Assembly (NCBI GenBank): GCA_022605955.1
Contig: JAKCOZ010000021.1
Span: 14,682,161-14,746,160 of the forward strand
Length of the DNA stretch: 64,000 nucleotides
Reading direction: 5' to 3'
Origin: Rallus limicola
Taxonomy: Eukaryota; Chordata; Aves; Gruiformes; Rallidae
In this document: one piece after another, positions 738 through 46,250 of the stretch
Layout: each line of letters opens with the position of its first letter
How positions within the stretch are numbered: position 1 is the stretch's first letter
Notes under the pieces: model-generated
Seen by the model: only the letters and a program-made list of their open reading frames with translations
Told to the model about the DNA's origin: nothing
Databases searched by the model: none
Translations under genes and position numbers: made by a program

Positions 738-907
738 CACAGTTAAACTCCTGGGCGGTCAAGGTGACGATGGAGCGGCCGTGCAGCTCCCGAGGACCCT
801 CGCAGGTGGCAGCTGTCTGGATACTGCCCTGCTCAGCGTATTTCTTCAGCAGCTCAGCCAGCCACATCAAGTCGCAGTCGCAGAGCAAGGCGTTGGAGTC
901 CAACCGC
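738..907 (-). CDS. Peroxidasin-like LRRCT cap exon
   Basis: This is a 170-nt exon with a TTGCAG acceptor and GTGAGC donor. It encodes [20 protein letters not shown], then a [13 protein letters not shown] segment, and ends EFNC. The four cysteines (CDC, TCE, FNC) are the LRRCT disulfide set. It ends one base into the next codon, as expected before the first Ig-domain exon, which is outside the window. Confidence 0.95.
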
Positions 908-3900
908 CTGCAAGAGAAAGAGAAGAAGAGGCAGCTCGTTCCTCAGCCTCTCACTGCTGCCTCCTTCTCCAGGGGAACAGTCCTCTGGAGCGAAGGATCA
1001 CTGGGCTGGTTCTCACTGCAGTTGATTAGATCCCAGGTGAAAATCCAAGATGTGTCATTCCCACCATATTTAACTAGGGTGCTTAACCAAGTCAGGAGGA
1101 TTTAGCTCAAAACCCAACATCACCCATCAGCCATGCCAGTTCCAAATGAAAATTATTCTGTAAACTGGGTTATGCATTTATGGCTTCATTTGAGGCAGAG
1201 AGAGATGTAAAACATCAGGGTTTCCCCCAGGATGGGGGGATTTCAACCTTCACCAAATTCTAGAAGAACAGCAGGTAGCACTGCCAGAGCTCTTCCAGCT
1301 CTACAAAGCTCCCCCTCTCTCCCCCCTGACTGCAGGACACATCAGATCAGCCTCTTTCTGCCACCATCTGTTAGAGGTTGTAGCATTTCTGCACAGCCAT
1401 AAGAACTTTCATTCCTGTGATGTTACTCCCGAGCTGTGCTGAAGGGAGCCCCAGTGACCTCCCAGCGCACCCGTGCTTCTCCCTCCCCTGACTCCATTCC
1501 TATGTGCAAGCACGATGCATAAGGATAAATAAAGATTAGAGGGGGATTAGTTTATGCCTCCTCCCCCCCATTGACAGTTTTACAGCGGATGGGGCTGGGC
1601 CATTGAATAATATATGAAAGAAAGGTCTCATGTTTCCAGGGACATGCACTGGAGAATGTGAGATTGCACAAGAGGCCATTAGACAGCGTTTTACAGACAC
1701 CCAACCTTGTCTGCTGACATGCACAGACCACATTTCTCCAGTTACACCCTGCTGAAGGGAAGAGGAGCACTCTACCTGCGTGCAGAAATCATGGAGAGCT
1801 GCAGTGAGAAACACAGCGTTTGCTTGTCGTTTAAAATCGTGGCAGAACACCAACATTCTTTGCTTGTTCCCCCTCCCCACCCCCCCAAAAAAAAAAAGCA
1901 TCATAGAACTTATTTCCAGAGATCATAAAGGACAAATAAAACAAAGCTCTGGAGTGGGGTTAAGTAAGGAAAAAATAAACTTAAGAAACAGCCAGGTTAT
2001 GCTGGAATAACACACTGGGGCATTCCTGCTTGGGACTGTGCACCTCAGCACCCCTCCAAGGGTTTTCAACCTCCAGATTATGCTGGAATAACACACTGGG
2101 GCATTCCTGCATGGGACTGTGCACCTCAGCACCCCTCCAAGGGTTTTCAACCTCCAGATTATGCTGGAATAACACACTGGGGCATTCCTGCATGGGACTG
2201 TGCACCTCAGCACCCCTCCAAGGGTTTTCAACCTCCAGATTATGCTGGAATAACACACTGGGGCATTCCTGCATGGGACTGTGCAGCTCAGCACCCCTCC
2301 AAGGGTTTTCAACCTCCAGATTATGCTGGAATAACACACTGGGGCATTCCTGCATGGGACTGTGCAGCTCAGCACCCCTCCAAGGGTTTTCAACCTCCAG
2401 ATTATGCTGGAATAACACACTGGGGCATTCCTGCATGGGACTGTGCACCTCAGCACCCCTCCAAGGGTTTTCAACCTCCAGATTATGCTGGAATAACACA
2501 CTGGGGCATTCCTGCATGGGACTGTGCACCTCAGCACCCCTCCAAGGGTTTTCAACCTCTAGAGAAAAAAAAGGTTTTTCCTTTTAGGACTTTGATTTTT
2601 CTCCCATGTTGGGACACCGATTTGAGGATGTGATCAAGGTCACATCTGTCACCTGGACTTCCTGTATCTTTGAAGAATGTTTCATGGCTTCAAACCTCTG
2701 TGAGGACTTTCCAGGAACGTTCATTCCTGTGTTATAGCTGAGCTGTAAGAAGGTCGTCGTTAGATTATAAACACGAGCACGAAGAAACTACAAACTGGTT
2801 AAATCACCTCTCCTGTCCAATCAAAACTGTTTTATAAACTTAGCAGTGGCCTTAGAAGTGCAACAACTAAAAGCTTTGCCAACCAGGCACATTTTTCCTC
2901 AGGTCCTGGCCCTCTGATCAAAGATAAACAATTGCTCTTTGCAGGCAGTGTTTTTTACTTACAGCCGTTTGAGGGATTCCAGTTGAGAGAATGTCCTGGG
3001 ATGAATCCTGGAGATCTTGTTGTTGTGCAAGAATCTGCAGTGGGAGAACCCGTGCCAAAACATTATTCAGTATTCACACTACACAGATGATAACATCCCA
3101 GGTCAAAACTCAGTTTAAATACAAAGGCTGCTCAGCAAAATGGAGCTTAGTGGGTTGGTTTGGGTTTTTTTTAGTGTTTTTTTTTTAATTTACTGTGTTT
3201 GTTTCCATGAGCTAAAAGGGATTTTGTTCATTTGCAAGACACCAAAGCAGAGAGCGGGTGTGGATTGGAAATGGTGACTCAAGATGTGATGTAACAGGTT
3301 TAAACTGGAACCTTAAGGTTTAATCTGCTTTGTGGTCAGCAAAGGGAGGAGAAAGGGCACCAAATCCCCACAGGCTGGACCCACCCTACATCTTCTGTGC
3401 CTGGGTCAGCCCCAGTTTAGAAGGGTCCTTTTCTTTTCCTCCCTGCAGAAGACAGGGCAGCTGTTGAAGTAACACTCCAGTGGAAGATGTAGGCAACCCA
3501 TGCCCTAGCCTCAGTGCAGTGATTAACCCAAATCCATGAGTAAATCCAATTCAGACAGCAGCCTGAGCTGGTCTTACCTCTGAACAAAGCCCAGGCAAAT
3601 TCTCACTTCCAGACAGACAAGGCTCCCCAGGTCTTAGGAAAAAACCCTGATTGCACCAATATTCACCAGTGGAGACCAAGAAAGGATCATTAACTCCCCA
3701 TCCCCATCATGGAGGGGGAAATTTAGTTATGTCTAAAACTCATAAGAGACCATGGATAATTAGTAGACAGTGGAACAGGAATGAAGCACAAAAGCAGCAC
3801 ATCTTGTGTGCCTGTGCACACCCAAGGTCAGCCTAGTTGCCCGGCTTGGATGCTGACAAGCCTCCCCTTAAAATTTAAATCCAGAATTTTTGTTGGATCA

Positions 3901-45862: not shown

Positions 45863-46250
45863 CTGAGCGGCGGCTCGGCTCAGCCCGGCGCGGCCCGTTC
45901 CACTCCCGGGCCTGGCTGCGCGACCGTCCCGGGGCGCTCCGGAGCGGTAAACACTGACCAGCTGAGCGCCGACCGCGCCAATACGCAGCCGCGGCGCGTA
46001 CCACCGCCCGGAGAAGGAGGGCCGGGAGCAGACCACTGCGGTTGGGAGAGCAGGGAGGGGCGGAGGGAGGCTGGCTGGGCTGCACAGTACAGACCCGGCG
46101 CGGGGAGCGGACTGTACCACTGCGGGGCAGGGGGTAGCGGTGGTTCTTTGAAGGGGCACCCGGCAGGGCCGGGCCCGTCCTAGTGCGGGGGTTGCTGTGG
46201 GGGCTGCTGGGTTCCATCGCGGCGTGAGCTCGACCGGCCCCGGAGGCACT
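45440..46250. promoter_or_regulatory. PCMTD2: CpG island, probable PCMTD2 promoter
   Basis: About 800 bp of very GC- and CpG-rich sequence, with GGGCGG/GGGGCGG Sp1-type boxes, lies 2 kb upstream of the PCMTD2 ATG exon. Long open frames on both strands here are a by-product of base composition; none resembles a known protein. It ends against a CR1 insertion at 46372. Confidence 0.8.
45863..46000 (-). other. PCMTD2: Candidate non-coding first exon of PCMTD2
   Basis: Inside the CpG island the minus strand has CGCTCAG|GTACGG, a good donor at 45862-45861. PCMTD genes have an untranslated first exon spliced to the ATG exon, whose acceptor here is near 43402. The exon's right-hand boundary (transcription start) is a guess. 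Confidence 0.5.

Follow-up and report, generated by a model that had tools for sequence, protein, structure and literature searches.

A probable third peroxidasin of vertebrates, ohnologous to PXDN and PXDNL, beside PCMTD2 and MYT1 in the rail Rallus limicola

We analysed a window of 64,000 nucleotides from the genome of the bird Rallus limicola (contig JAKCOZ010000021.1, here C21; C21:14682161-14746160), and the searches covered the assembly of 1.395 Gb in 1,102 contigs. Read from right to left, the minus strand of the window carried MYT1 (its last exons), PCMTD2 (its coding exons) and a peroxidasin-type gene (exons 1-7), called here the third peroxidasin (Table 1). The original prediction that these three genes stood in a row on one strand was borne out by tblastn and by exon models. 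The interval it had assigned to them (738-45863) did contain the peroxidasin and PCMTD2 exons but ended short of the MYT1 exons. The peroxidasin introns inside the window had GT/AG ends and matching phases, the five leucine-rich repeat (LRR) exons were each exactly 72 bases long, and a hydrophobic stretch was visible by eye right after the ATG. The Pfam evidence inside the window, from a scan of two of the three minus frames, was weak: the LRRCT match was barely over its cut-off and two LRR_8 matches were under theirs. The window alone was insufficient to prove a peroxidasin, because the immunoglobulin (Ig) and peroxidase parts of the gene fell outside it, and the proof came from the DNA to its left.

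In 40 kb of flanking DNA we found four Ig domains and a peroxidase exon of 1,504 bases, and assembly of the downstream exons completed a full peroxidasin of 22 exons in a single open frame with no stop, running from the LRRs through the Ig domains and the peroxidase exon to a tail. The 3' end was set by comparison with the Calypte and Crocodylus proteins, which added two short exons encoding a coiled stretch and then a basic tail. GT/AG ends were present at the 19 modelled introns and, by eye, at the two introns of this corrected 3' end. Thus, LRRNT, LRRs, LRRCT, four Ig domains and a heme peroxidase domain were combined in one predicted secreted protein, as in the peroxidasin family. The protein was 96% identical to those of Calypte and Patagioenas and 91% identical to that of Crocodylus, which speaks for purifying selection. 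A genome-wide heme peroxidase domain search returned 37 exon-level matches from 40 scored candidates, and only two of them were long single peroxidase exons of the peroxidasin kind, one just left of the window (PF03098, 536 bits) and one on contig C11 (535 bits); the remaining matches were short exons. Exons 2-19 of the third peroxidasin and of the C11 gene, PXDN, had equal lengths in 18 of 18 cases and equal phases, an agreement favoured by the fitting of both models to the same human PXDN, whereas exon 1 measured 164 bases in the third peroxidasin and 224 in PXDN.

Three genomic blocks could be compared by their MYT1, PCMTD and peroxidasin families. The block on C21 read MYT1-PCMTD2-third peroxidasin. 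On C7, the order ST18-PCMTD1-PXDNL mirrored it, with PXDNL reduced to a relic about 150 kb from PCMTD1, and on C11 MYT1L and PXDN lay about 72 kb apart, again with the MYT1-family gene linked in the same order and orientation. All 11 MYT1-family domain matches in the genome fell at these three places, and the ten PCMTD matches were divided between C21 (five) and C7 (five), with none on C11. The expected PXDN was therefore found next to a MYT1L-type gene, and of the PXDNL expected beside PCMTD1 there were traces of a decayed gene only. In human, PXDNL, PCMTD1 and ST18 at 8q11 presumably share this order and orientation, and we take PXDN and MYT1L to be linked on 2p25. Human MYT1-PCMTD2 (20q13.33) presumably lacks a peroxidasin, which is consistent with the missing therian sequences in the phylogeny described below.

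For the phylogeny we collected 169 database proteins from two overlapping searches (the best 120 matches of each) and added the C21 and C11 genes of Rallus limicola and two human sequences, giving 173 rows. FastTree placed 89 of them in a PXDN clade, 58 in a PXDNL clade and 24 in a third clade, leaving two lamprey rows. A mixture-model run of IQ-TREE on 44 chosen rows and 1,401 columns recovered the same three jawed-vertebrate clades; the third held 14 of the 44 rows at a support of 100/100 and combined tetrapods with rays and a chimaera. The members of this clade were the window gene together with proteins of birds, a crocodile, a turtle, squamates, echidna, salamanders, rays and a chimaera, and cartilaginous fishes occurred in all three clades. 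Rooted on the lampreys, this tree paired the third clade with PXDNL (100/100) to the exclusion of PXDN and the lampreys. Accordingly, the window gene stood outside the PXDN clade, this bird's PXDN being the gene on C11, and likewise outside the PXDNL clade and away from ST18-PCMTD1. Approximately unbiased (AU) tests, for which the groups were named after the tree had been seen, gave the same picture and are reported below with the alternatives that they address.

The residues that matter for peroxidasin chemistry and assembly were conserved throughout the third clade. Namely, Q823, D826, H827, R977, E980, H1074, C736 and C1315 (human PXDN numbering) were kept in 24 of 24 rows. With Q823 and D826 set aside, we take these to be the distal His and Arg, the proximal His, the Glu of the heme ester and the inter-subunit cysteines C736 and C1315. 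The catalytic and heme-linked set of a peroxidasin (distal His/Arg, proximal His, Asp/Glu of the heme esters and the halide-site Gln) was thus complete in all 24 rows, as were the trimer cysteines. The window gene also had a convertase site, RSKR, and the pattern R-X-(K/R)-R was present in 14 of 14 tetrapod rows. On the other hand, the C-terminal von Willebrand C domain of PXDN was lacking. No exon for it was detected by tblastn with human tails (E up to 20) in about 22 kb downstream (14642161-14664000), or by eye in 3.2 kb, and the last exon encoded a basic tail with zero cysteines. The 13 database tetrapod rows had 0-3 tail cysteines, the two rays had ten and the chimaera model had two; since the rays kept the domain, we took its absence as a derived loss. 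In a comparison of chosen rows, nine further sites were fixed differently in 13 tetrapod third rows where 14 PXDN and 10 PXDNL rows agreed with each other, and none of the nine was one of the eight catalytic or assembly positions.

The explanation favoured overall was a third vertebrate peroxidasin, intact and with its 5' part in the window, which arose as an ohnolog of PXDN and PXDNL in the early vertebrate genome duplications and stayed beside PCMTD2 and MYT1; from the sequence evidence we would give it a probability of roughly 0.86. The identity of the gene as an ohnolog seemed almost certain. Its neighbours were colinear and co-oriented on three chromosomes and its split from PXDN and PXDNL preceded the radiation of jawed vertebrates, as would be expected from the two rounds of early vertebrate genome duplication (2R). 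The proposal that an ancestral trio was duplicated early and that this bird keeps a peroxidasin copy was supported by the tree, the AU tests and the gene orders. Several points weighed against this explanation. Whether the third clade is sister to PXDNL depended on the root, and the two lamprey rows did not group together. A quick tree of 56 rows with a fly outgroup did not settle how the three clades branch, and it joined the cartilaginous-fish and tetrapod members of the third clade with a support of 83. The tree alone cannot distinguish 2R from any duplication before the jawed-vertebrate radiation; since it cannot date the split, the dating step rested on the order of the paralogous blocks, from which we infer that the duplications were those of 2R. 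Position gave ST18 and MYT1L their names, and only MYT1 had a database match. The only other genome examined for linkage to MYT1 was that of the axolotl, where both MYT1 and the third gene were on contigs of 1,273,943,533 bases, taken as one chromosome. Finally, where the convertase site is expected the two rays had no more than KR, and the chimaera, whose model may be faulty, had no such site.

The original prediction had allowed for a non-catalytic role, and the conservation of the eight catalytic, heme-linking and trimer positions in all 24 clade members did not support it; the third gene looks catalytic. According to two reports, a Q823W/D826E mutant of PXDN was unable to cross-link collagen IV (PMC8533639), and cleavage at R1336 strips the von Willebrand part from PXDN and raises its activity (PMC5377774). 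From the kept residues, the convertase site, the tail and this cleavage we arrived at a secreted matrix peroxidase that would oxidise bromide and be controlled at its C-terminus unlike PXDN. The protein would form a disulfide-linked heme peroxidase trimer, be cut at the RSKR site and oxidise bromide to hypobromous acid, thereby linking the collagen IV chains of basement membranes in the manner of PXDN. Since the tetrapod enzyme has no von Willebrand C domain and ends in a short coiled basic tail, it would probably be less restrained while still uncleaved, and its anchoring may differ. An overlap with PXDN is probable, as is a takeover of some tissues where PXDNL or PXDN acted. We leaned towards this bromide and collagen IV mechanism as a somewhat better than even proposition.

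The strongest competitor accepted a true third ohnolog but gave it another main job, such as host defence, work in a mineralised or eggshell matrix or a signalling peroxidase, a new role of which the missing von Willebrand C domain would be the mark. The tetrapod members did share this loss and a common basic tail, the nine differently fixed sites could be read in the same way, and retention was patchy, with no frog, coelacanth, ray-finned or therian row among the matches listed. However, the eight positions taken to serve PXDN chemistry and assembly were unchanged in all 24 rows and the nine changed sites missed every one of them. A different main task seemed unlikely, if worth keeping in mind.

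A later duplication of PXDN within birds, sauropsids or amniotes would fit the shared domain order, the matching lengths and phases of exons 2-19 and the 78% identity between its peroxidase part and that of PXDN on C11. However, the third clade took in echidna, salamanders, rays and chimaera at 100/100, an AU test rejected the union of tetrapod third genes and amniote PXDN as one clade (p 5.9e-8), and a local duplication would leave the matching MYT1 and PCMTD2 neighbours unexplained. Thus, a recent PXDN duplicate was rejected by the tree and the AU test and had a very slim chance of being correct.

The fate of PXDNL bore on another alternative, namely that the window gene was PXDNL itself, moved beside PCMTD2 and MYT1 in birds. 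A working PXDNL was not found at the expected place on C7, either by the genome-wide peroxidase domain search or by a search of the locus. The LRRCT exon was slightly closer to human PXDNL (66% identity) than to human PXDN (61%). However, alligator PXDNL matched C7 at five minus-strand places in the correct order: an Ig piece, a linker, a peroxidase exon interrupted by 11 in-frame stops, a second peroxidase stretch and a C-terminal coil. Two pieces, peroxidase (E 1e-29) and coil (E 5.5e-8), were strong singly when 50 kb were searched; the three remaining ones were weak (E 0.1-0.7, with the Ig piece reaching 1.7e-4 with turtle PXDNL) and counted because of their colinear order. No LRR exon was found in the relic, the stretch examined stopping at 12820000. 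The relic peroxidase piece scored higher with alligator PXDNL (118 bits) than with the crocodile third protein (96) or tinamou PXDN (94), and the coil piece was 69% identical to alligator PXDNL and 35% to tinamou PXDN. Since the pieces were spaced like exons, they represented a decayed gene rather than a processed copy. We concluded from these remains that Rallus limicola has lost its working PXDNL, still traceable beside PCMTD1 and ST18. Of the 57 database rows in the PXDNL clade, which came from the best 120 matches of each search, none was avian. Furthermore, an alligator and a turtle had PXDNL rows while crocodilians and a turtle also had rows in the third clade, and AU tests rejected both tetrapod third genes with amniote PXDNL as one clade (p 1.5e-40) and birds with PXDNL (p 8.7e-45). 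The original prediction would have yielded to a genome without a separate PXDNL and a gene placed inside PXDNL; a working PXDNL was indeed not found, but the window gene did not fall inside PXDNL, and for this reason the ohnolog interpretation stood. The translocation was refuted by the AU tests and the C7 relic and had next to no probability left. A pseudogene or an assembly or annotation artefact was about as improbable and was rejected by the open frame, the splice sites and the identity to the Calypte, Patagioenas and Crocodylus proteins.

Apart from the window gene, the third clade comprised 23 database rows: seven bird, two crocodilian, one turtle, seven squamate, one echidna, two salamander and three cartilaginous-fish. 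No therian, frog, coelacanth or ray-finned row belonged to it among the 169 matches. Such absence was weak evidence of loss, because the salamander rows were 32nd and 80th and a monitor lizard 117th of 120 listed, and divergent members may be missing from the matches listed. The third copy appears to predate the split between sharks and land vertebrates. The prediction that this bird keeps a copy was right, but the retention reached far wider, through reptiles and echidna to salamanders and cartilaginous fishes. The salamander and echidna rows lay in the third clade while the listed frog and therian matches fell in other clades. The distribution hints at several separate losses of the gene.

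A broader scenario can be sketched tentatively, and we would not bet on it as a whole. Jawed vertebrates may have started with three working peroxidasins, of which therians lost the third and birds PXDNL; the tetrapod third enzyme, lacking the von Willebrand C domain, would then be made near-mature, more active and with a basic anchor of its own. If this were true, the basement membranes of birds and reptiles would be cross-linked by a different enzyme pair from that of human.

In comparison with known peroxidases, the third gene resembled PXDN (also VPO1) in the order of LRRs, four Ig domains and peroxidase, in exon phases, in catalytic and heme-linked residues, and in trimer cysteines and convertase site, and differed from it in its separate clade, in an identity to the PXDN of Rallus limicola of 78% over the peroxidase part and 66% over the Ig part, and in the tetrapod copies without a von Willebrand C domain. 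PXDNL, the sister clade under the lamprey root, differed in surviving as a relic in Rallus limicola, in having ten tail cysteines in 14 of the 15 rows examined, and in the change of Q823/D826 in simian rows, both of which the third gene keeps. The pair was changed in 14 of 58 PXDNL rows (isoforms included), all from apes and monkeys; the 38 other rows with letters at both sites, among them alligator, turtle and coelacanth, kept Q and D, and six were gapped. Four other mammalian PXDNL rows each altered one of the remaining positions. The "non-catalytic" human PXDNL thus looks like a simian novelty, and the ancestral PXDNL was probably active. Myeloperoxidase (MPO), lactoperoxidase (LPO) and thyroid peroxidase belong to the same heme peroxidase family, and none of them is known to have LRR and Ig modules together. 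MPO was the best solved-structure match of the third peroxidasin (E 1.1e-165), and myeloperoxidases led the PDB matches, among the best 60 of which (698 in total) no peroxidasin appeared by name. Elsewhere in the genome, C24:9871550-9909726 carried two heme peroxidase exon sets in opposite orientation, which may be MPO/EPX/LPO-like.

Published counts give mammals six heme peroxidases of the superfamily, including two peroxidasins (PMC8533639, PMC9138014). The peroxidasin rows in a 2008 phylogeny (PMC2315650) were one from chimpanzee and one from chicken, and a bird-mammal alignment paper mentions a troublesome PXDNL alignment (PMC11601313). Among the papers listed by searches of the open PMC literature, judged mostly by title and the start of the abstract, we found no report of a third vertebrate peroxidasin. 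NCBI and UniRef label the proteins of the third clade "peroxidasin homolog" or the like, so the sequences were already known, but their standing as a third ohnolog apparently was not. Because the databases give the gene just this name, work on chick or reptile models may confuse the paralogs of what is apparently an active third peroxidasin, and bird genes called PXDNL deserve the same check. The third gene could also serve as a natural experiment on the role of the von Willebrand C domain, and could show if animals with a second active enzyme tolerate PXDN loss better.

The PCMTD2 exons were 90-97% identical to human PCMTD2 and 43-86% to PCMTD1, and PCMTD1 itself was a separate gene on C7. 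In the last three MYT1 exons, 129 of 129 residues were identical to manakin and alligator proteins named MYT1. A misassignment of PCMTD2 or MYT1 was ruled out by these identities and by the separate PCMTD1. Between PCMTD2 and MYT1, no Pfam match indicated a further gene at 43500-58500 in the four of six frames scanned.

Table 1. Features of the window and related loci in the Rallus limicola genome. Positions without a contig prefix are window positions.
Feature	Position	Strand	Basis
Third peroxidasin, 5' exons together	738-29063	minus	
Third peroxidasin exon 1: ATG (29063), putative signal peptide, LRRNT	28900-29063	minus	tblastn, exon model
Third peroxidasin exon 2, LRR	17733-17804	minus	exon model; AG/GT ends, phase 2
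Third peroxidasin exon 3, LRR	8860-8931	minus	exon model; LRR_8 25.6 bits, below cut-off 27
Third peroxidasin exon 4, LRR	8578-8649	minus	tblastn, exon model
Third peroxidasin exon 5, LRR	4545-4616	minus	tblastn, exon model
Third peroxidasin exon 6, LRR	2963-3034	minus	exon model; LRR_8 19.7 bits, below cut-off 27
Third peroxidasin exon 7, LRRCT	738-907	minus	Pfam LRRCT 20.6 bits, cut-off 20; exon model
Third peroxidasin exons 8-22, left of window	C21:14679468-14664129	minus	exon model on flanking DNA
Third peroxidasin, peroxidase exon match	C21:14667249-14668637	minus	heme peroxidase domain search
PCMTD2, coding exons together	35948-43378	minus	
PCMTD2 coding exon 1	43072-43378	minus	tblastn; splice end by eye
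PCMTD2 coding exon 2	41663-41765	minus	tblastn
PCMTD2 coding exon 3	39740-39911	minus	tblastn
PCMTD2 coding exon 4	38677-38800	minus	tblastn
PCMTD2 coding exon 5 with stop	35948-36330	minus	tblastn
MYT1, 3' end together	61287-63633	minus	
MYT1 exon near 3' end	63514-63633	minus	tblastn bounds; splice ends unrefined
MYT1 penultimate coding exon	62924-63079	minus	tblastn bounds
MYT1 last coding exon	61287-61424	minus	tblastn bounds
MYT1 domain exons, upstream of the window's MYT1 exons	C21:14761543-14766662	minus	MYT1-family domain search
ST18 (named by position)	C7:13091792-13110045	minus	MYT1-family domain search
PCMTD1	C7:12966404-12991359	minus	
PXDNL relic	C7:12772477-12816484	minus	matches to alligator PXDNL
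MYT1L (named by position)	C11:18363225-18373876	plus	MYT1-family domain search
PXDN, peroxidase exon match	C11:18513923-18515308	plus	heme peroxidase domain search

The window also contained several minor features. An open frame of 352 residues (45374-46432, minus strand) lay upstream of PCMTD2 and bordered a GC-rich stretch (58% at 46001-48000); Pfam scans of two frames on each strand matched nothing there, and the frame and the stretch are perhaps the promoter island of PCMTD2. Perfect microsatellites were present at 37187-37246, (TA)30, and at 50972-51027, (TTA)18.7. An 81-base tandem repeat (7.1 copies, 98% matches) occupied 1992-2563, within the intron that separates exon 6 of the third peroxidasin from exon 7.

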